This document shows, one piece after another, positions 6,664 through 63,737 of a stretch of DNA of 64,000 nucleotides. Made by a program: the position numbers and the translations under genes. A model generated the notes under the pieces. The model saw only the letters and a list, made by a program, of their open reading frames with translations. It was not told the DNA's origin and ran no database searches. The DNA is from Aureispira sp. CCB-E (GTDB lineage Bacteria > Bacteroidota > Bacteroidia > Chitinophagales > Saprospiraceae): assembly GCF_031326345.1 (NCBI RefSeq), contig NZ_CP133671.1:3596001-3660000 (forward strand), written 5' to 3'. The first letter of the stretch is position 1. Every line of letters starts with the position of its first letter.

Positions 6664-8307
6664 ATGGAAACACCTACAAAGATTGACTTAGAATTTAATA
6701 GAAACGAAGATACAAACAAACTAGAGGTTGCTAAAATGCGTCGTATGCTTAAAACCATTGGTTTGGGCGGAGGTCAAATGCGAATTGATAAATTACACAA
6801 AAAGGGTAAAATGACAGCCCGTGAGCGCATCAATTATTTGATTGACGATGATACAGAATTTCTAGAAATAGGTGCTTTTGCTGGGCATGAGATGTATGCA
6901 GATTATGGTGGTTGTCCAGCAGGGGGTGTTGTTGGTGGTATTGGATATATTCGTGGACGTCAATGTATGATTATTGCGAATGATGCTACCGTAAAAGCAG
7001 GGGCATGGTTTCCTATTACAGGAAAGAAAAATTTGCGTTTTCAAGAGATTGCGATGGAAAACCGCTTGCCAACTATTTATTTAGTGGATTCAGCAGGTGT
7101 TTTCTTGCCTATGCAAGATGAGATTTTTGCCGATAAAGAGCACTTTGGGCGTATTTTTCGCAACAATGCTCAAATGTCAAGCCAAGGTATTCCTCAAATT
7201 GCTGCTATTATGGGGAGTTGTGTAGCCGGAGGGGCATATTTGCCAATTATGTCGGATGAGGCGTTGATTGTAGAAGGTACAGGCTCTATTTTCTTGGCAG
7301 GACCTTATTTGGTAAAAGCTGCTATTGGAGAAACGGTTGATCAAGAAACATTGGGGGGGGCTACGACTCAAAGCGAAATTTCTGGTGTAACAGATTATAA
7401 AATGCCAGATGATAAGACTTGCTTGGATACCATCAAAGATTTAGTCGATAAGTTTGGAACATTTGAAACAGCTGGTTTTTCTAGAGAAACACCACAATTG
7501 CCTAAAGAAGATCCTAAAGAGATTTTTGGTATCTTACCTGCAGAGCGTTCTAAACCATACAATAGTAAAGAAATAATAAAGCGTTTGGTGGATAATTCTG
7601 AATTTACAGAATACAAAGAAGGGTATGGAAAAACAATCATCTGTGCTTATGCTCGAATTGATGGTTGGGCTGTTGGGATTGTTGCTAATAATCGCCAAGT
7701 CGTGAAAAGCGCAAAAGGCGAGGTACAGTTTGGTGGAGTGATTTATTCTGACTCTGCTGATAAAGCAGCTCGTTTTATTATGAACTGTAACCAAAAGAAA
7801 ATTCCTTTAGTTTTCTTGCACGATGTAACTGGATTTATGGTTGGTACTCGTTCAGAACATGGTGGAATCATTAAAGATGGGGCAAAAATGGTATCTGCTG
7901 TATCTAATTCTACGGTACCAAAGTTCTCTGTTATCATGGGAAATTCTTATGGTGCAGGAAATTATGCCATGTGTGGCAAAGCTTATGATCCTCGTTTGAT
8001 TGTTGCTTGGCCAACAGCTAAAGTTGCCGTTATGGGTGGTTCGCAAGCCGCCAAGGTTTTGCTCCAAATCCAAACTGCTTCTCAAAAAGCAAAAGGAGAA
8101 GAAGTAACACCAGAAGAGAAAAAGAAATTGTTGGATCAAATCACAGATCGTTACGACAAGCAAACAACACCGTATTATGCGGCTGCTCGTTTGTGGGTAG
8201 ATGCTATTATTGACCCTACAGAAACACGTTTTGTGATCTCTCAAGGAATCGAAGCTGCTAATAATGCACCTGTAGAGAAATTTAATCCAGGTATTATTCA
8301 GACTTAG
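6664..8307 (+). CDS. Acyl-CoA carboxylase carboxyltransferase (beta) subunit, methylcrotonyl-CoA type
   Basis: A 547-residue biotin-dependent carboxyltransferase. It transfers CO2 from carboxybiotin to an acyl-CoA in the cytoplasm. Both crotonase-like halves are present. The N-terminal half has TARERI, GGVVGGIGYIRGRQCMII, NDATVKAGAWFPITGKKNLR, YLVDSAGVFLPMQDEIF and MGSCVAGGAYLPIMSDE. The C-terminal half has NNRQVVKSAKGEVQFGG and GNSYGAGNYAMCGKAYDP. The LPMQDE and AGGAYLP blocks are closer to 3-methylcrotonyl-CoA carboxylase beta (leucine breakdown) than to propionyl-CoA carboxylase. Length is typical. The biotin-carrying alpha subunit is not in the window, so substrate remains unproved. It is transcribed alone and ends at a strong hairpin. 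Confidence 0.85.
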   Translation: METPTKIDLEFNRNEDTNKLEVAKMRRMLKTIGLGGGQMRIDKLHKKGKMTARERINYLIDDDTEFLEIGAFAGHEMYADYGGCPAGGVVGGIGYIRGRQCMIIANDATVKAGAWFPITGKKNLRFQEIAMENRLPTIYLVDSAGVFLPMQDEIFADKEHFGRIFRNNAQMSSQGIPQIAAIMGSCVAGGAYLPIMSDEALIVEGTGSIFLAGPYLVKAAIGETVDQETLGGATTQSEISGVTDYKMPDDKTCLDTIKDLVDKFGTFETAGFSRETPQLPKEDPKEIFGILPAERSKPYNSKEIIKRLVDNSEFTEYKEGYGKTIICAYARIDGWAVGIVANNRQVVKSAKGEVQFGGVIYSDSADKAARFIMNCNQKKIPLVFLHDVTGFMVGTRSEHGGIIKDGAKMVSAVSNSTVPKFSVIMGNSYGAGNYAMCGKAYDPRLIVAWPTAKVAVMGGSQAAKVLLQIQTASQKAKGEEVTPEEKKKLLDQITDRYDKQTTPYYAAARLWVDAIIDPTETRFVISQGIEAANNAPVEKFNPGIIQT

Positions 8308-8334
8308 ATTTTGAAAGTACAGCACTTTAAATTT

Positions 8335-8370
8335 CTGATGGTGAACTATTTGTAAATAGTTCACCATCAG
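8335..8370 (+). terminator. Strong hairpin after the carboxylase gene
   Basis: A near-perfect palindrome of 36 bases, with arms CTGATGGTGAACTATTT and AAATAGTTCACCATCAG around GT, so about 15 pairs in practice with a 6-base loop. It lies 27 bases past the stop and 28 bases before the channel gene. It lacks a long U-tract, so it may stabilise the mRNA 3' end rather than terminate fully. Confidence 0.65.
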
Positions 8371-8397
8371 CATTTATAATATCCTTATAATCCGTTT

Positions 8398-9243
8398 ATG
8401 AATCTACTGAAAAAAATCTTTCTAAATGACAAGATAATTCTTGCCTTGATTTCTATCAATGCTGTGATTATTTTTCTACAAGGTTTTCCAATTAAAACAA
8501 TAGGAGTAGAGGCGCATCATCTGTTTATGTTGATTGATGATATTATCTCTTTTTGTTTTTTGGTAGAGGTGCTTGTCAAAGGGCGCCATTTTGGGTTAAG
8601 AGAGTATTTAAAACCTACTTGGAATAAATTTGATGTTGCCTTAATTTTATTATCGTTGCCTCCTTTAGTTGCACGAATGTTTATTGATTATGAAACGGCA
8701 AACATTGGTTTCTTACTGGTGTTTAGAGTTTTTCGAGTCTTCAAATTCTTCCGATTTATACAATTCTTTCCACAGGTAGAGCATATTTTTAATTCCATAC
8801 GAGAAGCAATGCGTGCTTCTTTTATGGTCTTGATAGGTTTTTTTCTTTTTGTGTTTATCATGTCCATCTTATCGTGCTATATGTATCAAAATATTGCACC
8901 TGAATATTTTGGTGACCCTATTGTTTCCTACTATAGTATGTTCAAAGTGTTTACAATAGAAGGTTGGAATGCGATTCCTGAAGCTATTGCTGAAGGTGGG
9001 AAAGTAAATCTATTACAGGCATTTTTTACCAAGTTGTACTTTATTATAATACTAGTTTTTGGAGGTGTTATCGGGTTGTCAATTGTCAATTCTATTTTTG
9101 TTGACGCGATGGTTAGTGATAATAACGATGAATTGGAAGAGCAGGTAGGGATGATTAAAGAAGATGTAAAAAAACTAGAAAATAAAGTAGATCGCATTTT
9201 AACCTTGTTGGAGGAGCAGAAAAAGTCTCCGCCACAGATTTAA
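8398..9243 (+). CDS. Voltage-gated cation channel, BacNav/CavMr-like, filter TIEGWN
   Basis: A 281-residue six-helix ion channel subunit, expected to form tetramers in the inner membrane. S1-S4 lie at about residues 12-122. S4 carries charges every third position (R110, R113, K116, R119 in RVFRVFKFFRF). The pore loop reads FTIEGWNAIPEA (185-196). S6 ends in GLSIVNSIFVDAM, like the NaChBac family, and the tail (about 244-275, DELEEQVGMIKEDVKKLE) is a coiled coil as in BacNav proteins. The filter T-I-E-G-W (186-190) has Gly where Na+-selective homologues have Ser (TLESW). That Gly is typical of eukaryotic Cav repeats I and III and of the native Ca2+-selective channel CavMr. I therefore infer Ca2+ permeability. 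Confidence 0.85.
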   Translation: MNLLKKIFLNDKIILALISINAVIIFLQGFPIKTIGVEAHHLFMLIDDIISFCFLVEVLVKGRHFGLREYLKPTWNKFDVALILLSLPPLVARMFIDYETANIGFLLVFRVFRVFKFFRFIQFFPQVEHIFNSIREAMRASFMVLIGFFLFVFIMSILSCYMYQNIAPEYFGDPIVSYYSMFKVFTIEGWNAIPEAIAEGGKVNLLQAFFTKLYFIIILVFGGVIGLSIVNSIFVDAMVSDNNDELEEQVGMIKEDVKKLENKVDRILTLLEEQKKSPPQI

Positions 9244-9392
9244 GGCATTTCAATAGTACAGGACTATCTATGTTCATTTTTTCTTGTCGCAACGTTTTTT
9301 CTTTACTATCTTTAGAGGTTTAGGTTTTTAGACGACCTAAATATTAATTTTTCTCCTTGTAGAGAATATAAAATAGATAGAAATAGACAACT

Positions 9393-10277
9393 ATGGAAGC
9401 ATTAAAAGACGCCAATTTGATTATAAACCCTGATGGAAGTATTTACCACTTGGGAATTCGTCCAGAAGATATTGCAGAAACAATTATCCTCGTTGGAGAC
9501 CCGCAGCGAGTAAAAAAAGTAGCTGCGCATTTTGATTCTATTGAATTGACAAAGCAGAAACGAGAATTTATTACCACAACAGGACGAATTGGTAATCAAC
9601 GAATTACCTGTTTGGCTAGTGGGATAGGAGTGGATAATATTGACATTGTAGTCAATGAATTGGATGCGTTGGTAAATGTCGATTTCAAAACTAGGACTTT
9701 TAAAGAAGAACACACGGCTTTGAAGTTGATTCGCCTAGGAACTTCTGGAGCTATCCGAAAAGATATTCCTGTAGAAAGTTTCGTTGTAGCGGATTATGGG
9801 ATAGGATTTGATGGTTTGATGCTCTTTTATAAACAGTATCTCAATGAGAGAACGAAGGGATTGAAGCGAGATTTTAATGCTTTTTTAGATAACTTAAATT
9901 TCGACTTTCCAATTCCTCCAACTTACAGCAGTGCTTCTCAATCATTGATTGATTTGTTTCAAGCACCAGAATGGAAACATGGAATTACGGCGACTGCAAC
10001 TGGATTTTATGCGCCACAAAATAGAACCATTAGAGCGGAGAGTATTGTGCCTGAATTGTTTGATTTGCTGGAACCATTTTCTTATGATAACTTAAATGTA
10101 ACAAATTTGGAGATGGAAACATCTGCAATTTATGGTCTAGCAAGTGTCTTGGGGCACAAAGCATTGGCTTTGAATGTTATCCTTGCCAACCGCCCAACAG
10201 GAGCTTTTGCAACAGCACCAAAGGAATTGGAAAAGAAACTGATTCGTTCGTTCTTTGAAGTATATTTAGGAGCGTAG
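9393..10277 (+). CDS. Nucleoside phosphorylase (uridine phosphorylase-like)
   Basis: A 294-residue member of the PNP/UDP phosphorylase family. It cleaves a nucleoside with phosphate to base plus ribose-1-phosphate in the cytoplasm. Visible motifs are VGDPQRVKKVA (phosphate-binding loop near residue 33), TTTGRIG and ASGIGVDN, RLGTSGAIRKDIP (about 114-126) and NLEMETSAIYGLASVLG (about 247-263), where the family's Met-Glu contacts the ribose. The insertion after GIGFDGLMLFY and the overall length fit uridine phosphorylase-like proteins. Substrate (uridine or a purine nucleoside) cannot be told by eye. It is transcribed alone and ends at a clear terminator. Confidence 0.8.
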   Translation: MEALKDANLIINPDGSIYHLGIRPEDIAETIILVGDPQRVKKVAAHFDSIELTKQKREFITTTGRIGNQRITCLASGIGVDNIDIVVNELDALVNVDFKTRTFKEEHTALKLIRLGTSGAIRKDIPVESFVVADYGIGFDGLMLFYKQYLNERTKGLKRDFNAFLDNLNFDFPIPPTYSSASQSLIDLFQAPEWKHGITATATGFYAPQNRTIRAESIVPELFDLLEPFSYDNLNVTNLEMETSAIYGLASVLGHKALALNVILANRPTGAFATAPKELEKKLIRSFFEVYLGA

Positions 10278-15531: not shown

Positions 15532-17169
15532 ATGAACAAAAAAAACTCAAGATTTAGAATAGTTCTAGCAATAGGATTGGTGTTATGTATATTCAAGTCA
15601 TATTCCCAAAATAGTAACTTGAGTAGTTTACTAACTCAAACGCAGTGGGATGCCTTATTCCCCAAACGAGCAGGGACATTTGGCGTACATCCTCAAGGGT
15701 ACACAGCAGACTTTTATTCGTACAATAACTTGATGCAGGCGGCTTTAGAAATGTCAGACTATTTAGTAGAAATCAGAATTAAGCCAGGTGTTTGGGGGCA
15801 ATTAATAACCATTACAAAGAAATCAACACAGTTCACCTATATTTACTCCAATGTTGACCCGTGGTGGCATACGAACCCAAGCCCTGAGAATATTATCAAT
15901 GTCGATTTTGAAGATTTTATCAATAGGACATCTAGTTTAGATAACAAAAGAGAATTGGGGGCTTTTTTGGCAAACATATCTAAAGAAACTACTGGAGGTT
16001 GGCAATTGCCTGTTGGTGGTGGTGCGTCGGGAGATTATGCAGATTGGGGACTATATTTTGTACATGAACTAGGCTACAATAGTACGAACGGGGCAGGAGC
16101 ATACTCGCAAGCTCATGCGGACTACCCACCGAATCCTTTGGTGGGGTATTATGGTCGAGGACCTATTCAATTGTCGTGGAATTATAATTATGGTCAATTT
16201 AGTAAATTTTTATTCAATAATGCCACCATTTTATTGAATAATCCCGATTCTATCCAGCAAGATGGGGTATTAGCTTTTAAATCTGCTATTTGGTTTTGGA
16301 TGATGCCTCAATGTCCCAAACCCTCTGCTCATCAAGTAATGCATGATTTATGGAGGGCAGACGTTGGAGACTATTCGGCTAATAAAATGTATACAAAAGG
16401 TTTTGCCCATACCAACAATATTATTAATGGAGGGTTAGAATGTAGGAGCAGTTCCTCCGCAGCTTTTACACAGAAAGTAGTTTTACGATCAGAACTCTAT
16501 AAGTATTATTTAGGTATAATGGGATTGACAAATGCTCAAATAGCAGCGGAGGATGCCAATGGCTATTCTACCTTATGCTATGAATCTACTACAGATGCAA
16601 TGGAGGATTATATCAATTGTTATTACGAACCTATTATTCTAGATAATCATTTTTTGGATTTCGAAGCACAATCTATTTCTAATCAAACTATTTTGTTGCA
16701 CTGGAAAATCAAAGTAGAAAAAAATAGTCGATTTTTTGAAATTCAACGCAGTTCTAACGGTATAGATTGGGAGGTTATAGGACAAGTAATTGGCATCAAT
16801 GAAGCTGAAATCTATAATTTCAAGGATTTGAATCCTATAAATGGACAAAATTATTATCGTCTAAAAGTTATAGCGGCAAATAACGAGGCGAGTTATAGCA
16901 AGATTAGTACGGTTTATTGTTTGCAAAGTACTGGTTACAAAATCTATCCGAATCCCAATCAAGGCGTTTTTTATATAGATTTGAAAGGAGAATTGCAAGA
17001 GTTTGGTATGGTTGAAGTATTTGATGCTGTTGGTAGAAAGGTAAAAGAACAGAGGCTGAATGGCAAGTATGATTTAATCAACCTTCAAGAACAAGCAGCA
17101 GGTATTTATAGCTTAAAAATACAAATGGATAACCAATGTTTTTATACCAAAATAGTTGTTTGCCAGTAA
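15532..17169 (+). CDS. Secreted GH19 chitinase with T9SS C-terminal sorting domain
   Basis: A 545-residue exported enzyme that hydrolyses chitin or related beta-1,4-GlcNAc polymers. A signal peptide (about 1-25) precedes a GH19 catalytic domain (about 30-350). The diagnostic block YYGRGPIQLSWNYNYG is at about 206-221, and the probable catalytic pair is E152 (SKETTGGW) and E179 (FVHELG). A fibronectin-like region (about 375-460, WKIKVEKNSRFFEIQRSSNG) is followed by a type A T9SS sorting domain (about 468-545, IYPNPNQGVFYIDLKG...GIYSLKI). It should therefore be delivered to the surface or medium by the type IX system. The upstream AraC-type regulator is a candidate controller. Confidence 0.9.
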   Translation: MNKKNSRFRIVLAIGLVLCIFKSYSQNSNLSSLLTQTQWDALFPKRAGTFGVHPQGYTADFYSYNNLMQAALEMSDYLVEIRIKPGVWGQLITITKKSTQFTYIYSNVDPWWHTNPSPENIINVDFEDFINRTSSLDNKRELGAFLANISKETTGGWQLPVGGGASGDYADWGLYFVHELGYNSTNGAGAYSQAHADYPPNPLVGYYGRGPIQLSWNYNYGQFSKFLFNNATILLNNPDSIQQDGVLAFKSAIWFWMMPQCPKPSAHQVMHDLWRADVGDYSANKMYTKGFAHTNNIINGGLECRSSSSAAFTQKVVLRSELYKYYLGIMGLTNAQIAAEDANGYSTLCYESTTDAMEDYINCYYEPIILDNHFLDFEAQSISNQTILLHWKIKVEKNSRFFEIQRSSNGIDWEVIGQVIGINEAEIYNFKDLNPINGQNYYRLKVIAANNEASYSKISTVYCLQSTGYKIYPNPNQGVFYIDLKGELQEFGMVEVFDAVGRKVKEQRLNGKYDLINLQEQAAGIYSLKIQMDNQCFYTKIVVCQ

Positions 17170-43219: not shown

Positions 43220-44323
43220 ATGCGACAAAAATTATGTTTTTTATTAATTTTTATCGCTCCAATTGTACAAGCCCAATACGATCAGCAACAACTATTATTA
43301 AACCAAAATGGTCAAGAATTACTAGATGAATTAGTGGATTTGTATAAACCTAGTTTTGTTTTAGATTATGATGATGCGAGAGATACACTTTTTGCTAAGG
43401 TATATGCATTGGAGGATAGTGTACGTTGTGTATACACAGGGCATGCCTTGCATTTGAATACTCAAGTAGATCCTTCTACCAATTTGTATAATGGAGGTAG
43501 TGCTAACGGAATTAATACAGAGCATACGTATCCTCAAAGTAAAGGAGCGGGTCAAGGAAATGCTCGTAGCGATTTGCATCATTTATTTCCTGTTCGTGCA
43601 GCTGTTAATTCTGCTCGAAATAATTTTCCCTATGCAGAAATAGCAGATGAAAAAACAACTGCTTGGTTCTACAACGCAGTGACAGAAAGTTATCCAACCA
43701 AAGAAGCAACATGGTATAGTGAATTAGATTTTAATGCCGAAGTTTTCGAACCCAAGGAAGCGCATAAGGGCAATGCTGCCCGTGCAATTTTTTACTTTTA
43801 TACGATGTACAAAGCGGAAGCAGATGCCGCTGATCCTACTTTTTTTGCAAAGCAGTTGCCTACTATTTGCCAATGGCACTTGGATGATCCTGTTGACAGT
43901 TTAGAGTGGGAACGCACACACATTATAGCACATTATCAAGAAGGAAAGGCAAATCCTTTTGTCTTAGATTGTAGCTTGCCATACAGAACCTATTGCCCAT
44001 ATTTGCCTGCCAACAGCTGTTTTACTAGTTATAATACTTTGGCTGATTTTGGGGCAGAATTATATGCCAATTTTCCTAATCCTGCAACTACAAGCATGAC
44101 CATTCAATACGAGTTAAGTCGTCCTACGATGGTTCAAATTAGTATTTATAATTCGACAGGGCAGTGTTTAAAAACGCTGTCGTTGGGGGAGCAAGACGCT
44201 GGTCTTTTTCAAAAAAATATTGTCTGCACAGATTGGGCAAGTGGAGTGTATGCTTATCGTCTTAGTTTGGAACAAAATGGACATGTTATTAATTTGGTCA
44301 TACAGTTTACAATTAAGCACTAA
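43220..44323 (+). CDS. Secreted endonuclease I family nuclease with T9SS sorting domain
   Basis: A 367-residue exported nuclease. A signal peptide (about 1-18) precedes an endonuclease I (EndA/NucM) domain: VYTGHALHLN, GINTEHTYPQSKGA (98-110, metal-binding and general-base region with H102) and RSDLHHLFPVRAAVNSARNN (117-136). The C-terminal 90 or so residues (from LYANFPNPATTSMTIQYEL to GVYAYRL) form a T9SS type A sorting domain. It should be exported to the surface or medium and degrade DNA there, useful for nutrient capture or for clearing extracellular DNA. It is transcribed alone. Confidence 0.9.
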   Translation: MRQKLCFLLIFIAPIVQAQYDQQQLLLNQNGQELLDELVDLYKPSFVLDYDDARDTLFAKVYALEDSVRCVYTGHALHLNTQVDPSTNLYNGGSANGINTEHTYPQSKGAGQGNARSDLHHLFPVRAAVNSARNNFPYAEIADEKTTAWFYNAVTESYPTKEATWYSELDFNAEVFEPKEAHKGNAARAIFYFYTMYKAEADAADPTFFAKQLPTICQWHLDDPVDSLEWERTHIIAHYQEGKANPFVLDCSLPYRTYCPYLPANSCFTSYNTLADFGAELYANFPNPATTSMTIQYELSRPTMVQISIYNSTGQCLKTLSLGEQDAGLFQKNIVCTDWASGVYAYRLSLEQNGHVINLVIQFTIKH

Positions 44324-62198: not shown

Positions 62199-62723
62199 TG
62201 TTTGTGAATCGATTCGAGTATGGTGTAGAATGGTTTATTGTATGACACTTTAGCTTAGTAAGAGCATTAACTGTCGGTATATACTGTTAGAGGTAGGTGC
62301 TAAACTTAAGGAACACTTGTTCTAAAAGGGCAAGAAGGGGGAGTCATTGTGTGGTTCATAATTGTAATAATGAGAAAAGCATTTGATAAATCTAAAAAAA
62401 ATATCGTTTTCAGGCAACCCAAAAGCATATAAAGAAATCTTATGAAGATTCTAAGTAAGAGGTCAGAAAAAATAAGAACAAAAAATGGGATTATTTTTTT
62501 GAACGATTACTTAAGAACAAGATTTGAGCAAGTAATGGCACTATCAAAGTATGCACTAATCAATTGCTTAACAAATGTTTTCCGATTAGTTCAAAAATCT
62601 TGCCCAACAAAAGTGAGGTTTGCCCATCGCATCTTTAATCCTAAAATAAGTGAGTAGCCTTTTGTTTTTTGTGTGAAGCTTTGTAACTTGTTCGTTCGTC
62701 ATAACCAACAAAGCGCCGATCCT
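62199..62723. other. 525-base divergent intergenic region
   Basis: Contains a short match to the right end of family-2 repeats (GAACGATTACTTAA at 62501-62514). A 71-codon frame at 62442-62657 has no family features and overlaps this repeat tail. I see nothing else. Confidence 0.4.
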
Positions 62724-63737
62724 ATGCCAACAAAACGAGGACTAAGAGAACATATTTACCACTTTATAGATAATGAAGAAGAGCAAAGTTTTGGAAGCCA
62801 ATCATTTGAATTGTTTATTACTGGGCTCATTCTATTAAGCATTGTGGCCATTGTATTGGAGTCGTTTGATAATTTAAGAGAGCAATATGGTTACTATTTT
62901 AATTTGTTTGAAAATATTACTTTAGGTATTTTTACCATAGAATACATTTTGCGTGTTTCTACAGCAGATTACAAATATAAAGATGCGGTATCTTGGCCTA
63001 CGGCTGCCTGGCGATTTATCACCTCTGGTTCAGGAATTGTAGATTTAATAGCAATCGCTCCAATCTTCTTCCATTTTGCTTCTTTCTTTGGTTTGAGAGA
63101 GTTTGCTCAAAATGATTTTCGATTCATTCGGATTTTGAAGATTACTCGATTGTTGAGAATTTTCAAAATGAACTCTTTTACCAATTCGATTACAGTCGTT
63201 GCAGAAGTCTTTACAGAAAAACGACACGATTTAGGGATTACTTTGTTTGTAACATTCGTATTATTATTAGTATCTTCTACCTTAATGTGGTATGTAGAAG
63301 GGCAAGAACAACCAGAATTGTTTCCTAATATTGTCGCTTCTTTTTGGTGGGCAATTGCTACCTTAACGACCGTCGGTTACGGAGATGTATTTCCGATTAC
63401 ACCTTTAGGAAAGTTTCTATCGGGATTGATTGCCTTGTTAGGAATTGGTTTGGTTGCGTTGCCAGCAGGTATTTTGAGTTCCGCTTTTATCGAAAAGCTA
63501 GAAGATGGCACCATCAAAGAGGAAGAAATAGACAATTATGTTCCCAAAGGGAATTTGCCACAAGCGCAATTTCAGAAAGTCAATACCAAAAAAAGTGACG
63601 ATAGTAGTTGGGCGACCAATGAAACCATAGAAACCAATCGTCATAAAGATTGTAGTCAGCACTTTGGAAAGGCTTTTGTATATTGCCCTTATTGTGGTGA
63701 AAAATTAAACGATGATGAAAATCATATACATACGTAA
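62724..63737 (+). CDS. Voltage-gated K+ channel (Kv-like) with C-terminal zinc-ribbon-like tail
   Basis: A 337-residue tetrameric channel subunit from the ATG at 62724 (MPTKRGLREHIYHFIDNEEE); the frame extends 17 codons upstream to a GTG. Six helices: S1 near 32-48 (FELFITGLILLSIVAIVLES), S4 near 135-150 with FRFIRILKITRLLRIFKMNS (Arg/Lys every third residue), and the pore loop TLTTVGYGDVFP with the K+ signature (about 213-224). The cytoplasmic C-terminus ends KDCSQHFGKAFVYCPYCGEK, a CxxC with upstream Cys and His that could bind zinc, an unusual tail for a bacterial Kv. With the Cav-like channel at 8.4 kb it gives this organism two voltage-gated systems. Confidence 0.88.
   Translation: MPTKRGLREHIYHFIDNEEEQSFGSQSFELFITGLILLSIVAIVLESFDNLREQYGYYFNLFENITLGIFTIEYILRVSTADYKYKDAVSWPTAAWRFITSGSGIVDLIAIAPIFFHFASFFGLREFAQNDFRFIRILKITRLLRIFKMNSFTNSITVVAEVFTEKRHDLGITLFVTFVLLLVSSTLMWYVEGQEQPELFPNIVASFWWAIATLTTVGYGDVFPITPLGKFLSGLIALLGIGLVALPAGILSSAFIEKLEDGTIKEEEIDNYVPKGNLPQAQFQKVNTKKSDDSSWATNETIETNRHKDCSQHFGKAFVYCPYCGEKLNDDENHIHT

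Follow-up and report, generated by a model that had tools for sequence, protein, structure and literature searches.

A Glu-Gly-Trp filter channel of Aureispira, a candidate voltage-gated Ca2+ channel from a family scattered through Bacteroidota

CavMr, of Meiothermus ruber and the AnclNav group, is the sole native prokaryotic Ca2+ channel that we found in open-licence papers. Excerpts of PMC7041947 identify the Gly that follows its filter Glu as a determinant of Ca2+ selectivity and state that this Gly is also present in repeats I and III of eukaryotic Cav channels, both as stated in the original prediction for the locus described here. The window analysed, i.e. the whole stretch of 64,000 nucleotides from Aureispira sp. 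CCB-E, encodes at positions 8398-9243 a one-domain channel with the same Gly, raising the question of whether this is a bacterial Ca2+ channel in its own right and how it relates to CavMr. What looks like a second and separate lineage with Glu-Gly-Trp, found here and there across Bacteroidota, would show how far the Gly rule reaches, holding either generally or only on the AnclNav backbone; the natural variation at filter positions 6 and 7 within the channel's family, for which we use our own name, the EGW family, is available for that comparison.

The open reading frame, its filter residues T186-I187-E188-G189-W190 (codons at 8953-8967) and the intact S4 charges R110, R113, K116 and R119 are all as the original prediction gave them. 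The features of the locus are as follows.

8335-8370, + strand: terminator-like hairpin (stem of 16 pairs) separating the carboxylase-like gene upstream from the channel gene (terminator scan)
8398-9243, + strand: EGW-family channel gene, one-domain voltage-gated cation channel, 281 residues (ATG-started open reading frame; Ion_trans)
8428-8481, + strand: S1, residues 11-28 (AlphaFold2 helix; named by homology)
8506-8592, + strand: S2, residues 37-65, with F54, E57 and K61 (AlphaFold2)
8617-8682, + strand: S3 region, residues 74-95, with W75, N76 and D79 (AlphaFold2)
8707-8766, + strand: S4 voltage sensor, residues 104-123, with R110, R113, K116 and R119 (residue conservation)
8776-8886, + strand: S4-S5 linker and S5, residues 127-163 (AlphaFold2)
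8917-8949, + strand: P1 helix, residues 174-184 (AlphaFold2)
8953-8973, + strand: selectivity filter, T186-I187-E188-G189-W190-N191-A192 (sequence)
9010-9225, + strand: S6 continuing into the C-terminal helix, residues 205-276 (AlphaFold2, unbroken helix)
9133-9210, + strand: predicted coiled coil, a/d positions L246, V250, I253, V257, L260, V264, I267 and L271 (heptad run)

The protein is a member of the Ion_trans superfamily, with S1-S6, S4 charges and a P-loop. It matches PF00520 (Ion_trans, Pfam) at 1.3e-24, and its AlphaFold2 model, based on 48 alignment rows (mean pLDDT 91, pTM 0.65), has helices that fit S1-S6 and the P-loop. The nearest solved structures found with Foldseek are NavMs, a CatSpermasome chain at rank 2 and then NavAb, with engineered CavAb at rank 22, the TM scores being 0.54-0.75 among the best 50 matches listed. 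The predicted coiled-coil tail is supported by a run of eight consecutive a/d heptad positions that are all V/I/L/M, reached by only 2 of 20000 shuffles. The description of S6 as NaChBac-type was apt insofar as an Asn is kept there, but the label is loose, the pattern IGLSIVNSIFVDAM being the family's own. A K+ channel can be rejected for 8398-9243, which is without TVGYG; the predicted second, K+-type channel in the window is indeed present at 62673-63737 (+ strand, likely ATG 62724), with TVGYGD and a zinc-ribbon-like C-terminal end, CPYCGEKL.

The 16-pair hairpin between the carboxylase-like gene and the channel gene suggests that the channel is transcribed apart from that upstream gene; two terminator-like sites lie within 8150-9500 (shuffle mean 0.7), and a simple scan of the same interval gave no + strand promoter-like site. 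The genes neighbouring the channel in the window appear to be metabolic and offer no clue to its function. Within the window's clade, by names assigned by eye, 11 of 12 loci have a carboxylase-like gene upstream of the channel (at a distance above 1 kb in L069 and L073), and 10 have a phosphorylase-like gene downstream. Elsewhere in the window, again by eye, 15532-17169 (+ strand) resembles a chitinase-type glycoside hydrolase and 43220-44323 (+ strand) resembles endonuclease I, both with secretion-tail-like ends.

Protein searches found orthologs of the channel at 57-88% identity in all seven other genus genomes and, at 35-39%, in 10 of the 29 genomes searched from the rest of the family, by which we take the gene to be real, with no strong match in 23 further genomes of the order. 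The separation was sharp: 18 of 60 relatives, the channel's own genome included, scored at least 172 bits, the next lower score being 42 bits, and all 18 read T(I/L/V)EGW. A profile search, in which at most six first-look candidates were scored per genome, placed 16 of 395 class genomes (a count that takes in the channel's own genome and G034 a second time) at or above 180 bits, with 110 as the highest score below that; 11 of the 16 have EGW and five SGDGF. Taking both searches together and leaving aside the weaker matches, which come from other groups of channels (TGEDWTD, TLEDWTD, TLEGWVD and K+ type), all 32 family members, each from a different genome (27 EGW, five SGDGF), have Gly at filter position 4. 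The five class genomes with the odd filter (L048-L052) read SGDGFFD or SGDGFSD, with Asp replacing Glu and Phe replacing the otherwise invariant Trp.

A scan of genome contigs found 416 relatives of what is a little-noticed bacterial channel family; the counts that follow rest on the best 80 of these (L067-L146), which are partly selected for EGW, since one of the two patterns used contains it. Gly4 is present in 80/80 and Glu3 in 79/80, with one Asp, and position 7 carries an acid in 66 and a neutral residue in 14 (the L145 filter being read by eye). The filter TVEGWFE, for example, occurs in L108, from Maribacter aquimaris, and L092, from Saccharicrinis aurantiacus. A chance Gly or a sequencing slip at G189 was rejected, given its retention in 32/32 and 80/80 relatives. 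In the 48-row alignment G189 and W190 are present in 48/48 and E188 in 47/48. The voltage-sensor residues are similarly constant: R110 and R113 in every row, K116 as Lys in 43 and Arg in five, R119 as Arg in 47 and Lys in one. F54, E57, K61 and D79 occur in 48/48 and W75 and N76 in 47/48; by homology, F54, E57 and K61 presumably have a charge-transfer role. The combination of Asn at position 6 and a neutral residue at position 7 occurs, among the best 80 of 416, only in the window's clade of 12 loci, from Aureispira, Saprospira, the Saprospiraceae MAGs L072 and L073 and the Chitinophagales MAG L080; N6 with E7 is found in several other Saprospiraceae. The protein of Aureispira sp. CCB-QB1 (L067) is identical over all 281 residues.

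How the family relates to CavMr was addressed with an 89-row tree, rooted at the midpoint beside four K+-type channels, for which the tool warned of long branches meeting; CavMr and NavPp themselves are absent from it, L053-L057 standing in for them by filter (TLEGWVD, TLEDWTD). One clade, with support of 99/96, holds NaChBac, NavAb, NavMs, L053-L057, the TGEDWTD proteins and L058, L059 and L061; the window channel lies outside it, in a second clade of 69 EGW or SGDGF rows whose support, 94/74, is below the tool's mark for a firm branch. Forcing the EGW family and L053-L057 into one clade cost 13.8 log units (AU p 0.0625, no rejection at 0.05), and grouping the family with CavMr/NavPp-type channels is thus disfavoured by the tree but not firmly rejected. 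Glu-Gly-Trp occurs in the EGW family, in L053 and L054, nested among TLEDWTD proteins, and in L058 and L059; if the separation in the best tree holds, Glu-Gly-Trp, and with it Gly4, would have arisen more than once. L053 and L054 are themselves candidate AnclNav-type Ca2+ channels, being Bacteroidia proteins with the exact CavMr filter TLEGWVD and cysteines in the following loop.

The window channel shares with CavMr its single domain, Glu-Gly-Trp at positions 3-5 and an expected homotetrameric assembly, and that likeness of the filters, on which the original prediction built, stands as a fact of sequence. The parallel goes no further at positions 6-7, where the window channel has N-A and CavMr V-D, the Val being absent at N191, nor in the best tree, where it falls outside the CavMr/NavPp-filter group. 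A strict orthologue of CavMr, belonging to AnclNav proper, would fit the shared Gly4 and one-domain architecture, and neither the AU p value, above 0.05, nor the modest EGW clade support speaks firmly against it. Set against the 99/96 support for the clade joining BacNav and AnclNav-type channels, the weaker NaChBac match (61 bits for the window protein, 158 bits for AnclNav-like L055), an identity of 18-24% to L053-L057 and the lack of any Cys in residues 191-213, the loop after the filter, orthology is improbable; the window channel is probably not an orthologue of CavMr. According to excerpts of a 2023 review, a disulfide in that loop is reported for CavMr, and is not shown there to define the group (PMC10120453). 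The comparison called for with NaChBac and NavAb gave 23-24% identity, as did that with NavMs, and CavMr was represented in it by L053, with the same filter and 23.6% identity. NaChBac, NavAb and NavMs share with the window channel the fold, the S4 charges, a single filter Glu and a long S6 leading into a coiled-coil tail, but belong to a separate clade and have Ser after the Glu, the canonical TLESW being absent from the window channel. Among eukaryotic channels, Cav3 and Cav2 chains rank first for the EGW-family profile, although multi-repeat chains sum their scores; Cav and CatSper channels are built from four different repeats or subunits, whereas the window channel has one identical subunit.

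With respect to selectivity, mutagenesis of CavMr, for which Sf9 cells served as the expression system, is informative. Excerpts of PMC7041947 give PCa/PNa values of 218 for CavMr, 11.9 for G4S and 7.7 for G4D, and of 41 for NavPp D4G; V6T (filter TLEGWTD) reduced the CavMr value to 40 with a K+ leak (PK/PNa 0.69), and D7M, with one carboxylate per subunit, left it at 144. Excerpts of the 2023 review likewise associate one-domain channels that have Gly at filter position 4 with selectivity for Ca2+ (PMC10120453). Compared with these mutants, TIEGWNA retains the decisive Gly, has a polar residue at position 6, as in V6T, and a neutral one at position 7, as in D7M. Since N6 and A7 are unlike CavMr, moderate selectivity is likelier than the value of about 200 of CavMr, our best guess by analogy being a PCa/PNa of tens with some K+ leak. 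Given the position in the tree, the 23.6% identity to L053 and the lack of a loop Cys, applying the Gly rule to this channel is an analogy, and a Ca2+ preference of the window channel is plausible on that footing; conservation across the family backs it better than the original prediction, made from one sequence, could show. Our main reading, to which we give a probability of roughly 0.58, is that the protein forms a homotetrameric cation channel in the inner membrane, opened by depolarisation, which would favour Ca2+ over Na+.

A possible, less probable reading is that the channel is voltage-gated yet weakly selective or Na+-permeable, the Gly widening the entry, but one carboxylate per subunit, N6 and A7 being insufficient for Ca2+ selectivity in this backbone. 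The polar N6 and neutral A7 count against Ca2+ selectivity, and the acid at position 7, present in 66 of the best 80 of 416 relatives, is missing from the window's clade; the K+ permeation of CavMr V6T points the same way. The family's backbone is also unlike that of the CavMr/NavPp-type channels. Because the family lies outside the clade of BacNav and CavMr/NavPp-filter channels, and filter swaps between CavMr and NavAb gave no detectable current (excerpts of PMC7041947), the Gly rule may not transfer. In the same paper, current was undetectable for two of four AnclNavs tried. What tells against weak selectivity is that Gly4 is invariant throughout the EGW family and that CavMr D7M, with its one carboxylate per subunit, keeps a PCa/PNa of 144 and NavPp D4G reaches 41. 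We found no electrophysiology on any EGW-family member in open-licence papers.

If the main reading, a Ca2+-preferring channel, is correct, four subunits held together by the C-terminal tail would form a ring of four Glu residues, with the Gly widening the pore entry such that Ca2+ could out-compete Na+, as proposed for CavMr. Depolarisation would then admit Ca2+, which a CaCA exchanger could clear; the genome encodes one (PF01699, with two repeats in one 345-residue frame). Counted against the Ca2+ reading is that the genome gave no match to EF-hand_7 (found in 1 of 14 control genomes) or to Cation_ATPase_C (found in 10 of 14). A voltage-to-Ca2+ signal in a predator is the likely use in Aureispira, and the weakest step of this scheme. 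Calcium is reportedly required for ixotrophy in Aureispira sp. CCB-QB1, going by the title of a 2015 paper, and the host being a predator whose prey capture is said to need calcium makes the physiology directly testable. Excerpts of two further papers describe the formation of cell aggregates by the marine strain CCB-QB1 with CaCl2 (PMC8868019) and Saprospira grandis as likewise an ixotrophic predator (PMC10508125).

The genome also encodes two one-domain channels with the filter TGEDWTD (C1:637102-637857, L001; C1:6261897-6262640, L002). We take this filter to be reminiscent of that of Cav repeat II. At E<=1e-20 the TGEDWTD family is present in 8/8 genus genomes and 0/52 other relatives; among 30 named genomes it is strong in five, which are all of the Aureispira and Saprospira ones in the set, with one weak match (84 bits) in the genome of L118. 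The CCB-QB1 genome and that of the window give the same two scores. This distribution, and the neutral position 7 in the clade of the TGEDWTD carriers, would suit mixed tetramers of EGW and TGEDWTD subunits in Aureispira and Saprospira, imitating eukaryotic Cav repeats in their alternation of filters. Such assemblies are nevertheless very improbable, as the two proteins are about 20% identical and their genes far apart, the genome of L080 has a neutral position-7 filter without the TGEDWTD family, and the co-occurrence, restricted to a single lineage, is phylogenetically one event.

Outside the window's clade, the gene context of the family was unexpected. In 31 of the best 80 of 416 loci (e.g. 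L108:5004-7629 and L094:4947-6861) the channel adjoins a gene for a predicted PD-(D/E)XK nuclease, which belongs to either of two families. The Mrr-like type (17 loci) is a protein of about 620 residues encoded beside the channel on the same strand, with a C-terminal D..ECK motif (that of L085 is cut by a contig end); 8 of 16 scanned gave a weak Mrr_cat match, at best 2.3e-4. The HSDR_N type (14 loci) has about 360 residues and matched HSDR_N in 13 of 13 scanned, that of L124, split in two frames, being left out. Both alignments keep D, E, C and K in every row of this motif, which we read as a putative PD-(D/E)XK active site. With each gene started at its first ATG, 27 of the 31 pairs lie between a 40-base overlap and 30 bases apart, and 15 overlap; both gene orders occur, the nuclease coming first in five. 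A further case, L047, came from the class survey. On the 80-row tree the partner state has changed at least 13 times, or 11 if presence alone is counted, with seven loci cut off at contig ends omitted, and L093 and L079, of one small clade (98/74), carry different nucleases. No nuclease adjoins the channel in any of the 12 window-clade loci, and the window's genome has neither type at E<=1e-40.

The linkage is asymmetric, in that the channel is often beside a nuclease, but the converse does not hold. HSDR_N-type nucleases are common (51 of 395 phylum genomes), yet none of 30 fetched has an EGW channel beside it; the Mrr-like nuclease is rare (1 of 395 genomes), and the sequence around that one, extending only 657 bases on one side, shows no channel. 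The Mrr-like model (pLDDT 77) gave weak fold matches, the best being a nicking endonuclease (5.8e-4, TM about 0.2). PADLOC at E<=0.1 gave no match for three channels or two HSDR_N-type nucleases; of two Mrr-like nucleases one was without a match and one gave weak Cas4 models, at best 4.5e-4. At E<=1e-8, 207 models matched among 131 of 176 neighbours in the 31 nuclease-bearing loci, from which 45 neighbours had been dropped by hand to keep within a size limit, and 101 models among 131 control neighbours drawn at random from the 238 of the 37 other loci, the window's 12 clade loci being in neither set. Defence-like genes occur in both (nuclease-bearing: ThsB_TIR 2, YhcG_C 2, ORF6N 3; control: a type IIG enzyme, GajB and PD-Lambda-5, 1 each).

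Our literature searches turned up no paper that connects a nuclease operon to a voltage-gated channel. If functional, the close association, with its repeated changes of partner, would point to a voltage-linked DNA-cutting system. A wider scheme, which we regard as doubtful as a whole, is that EGW channels are a distinct bacterial Ca2+-channel lineage turning depolarisation into an intracellular response, which many Bacteroidota pair with an exchangeable PD-(D/E)XK nuclease, possibly against phage, membrane damage opening the channel and the ions licensing the nuclease. Aureispira and Saprospira would then have a stand-alone derivative, used together with the TGEDWTD channels for calcium-dependent prey capture. 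As a separate observation, made by eye, HSDR_N-type nuclease genes adjoin (L173) or lie 0.8 kb from (L174) a gene resembling the voltage sensor of a K+-type channel.
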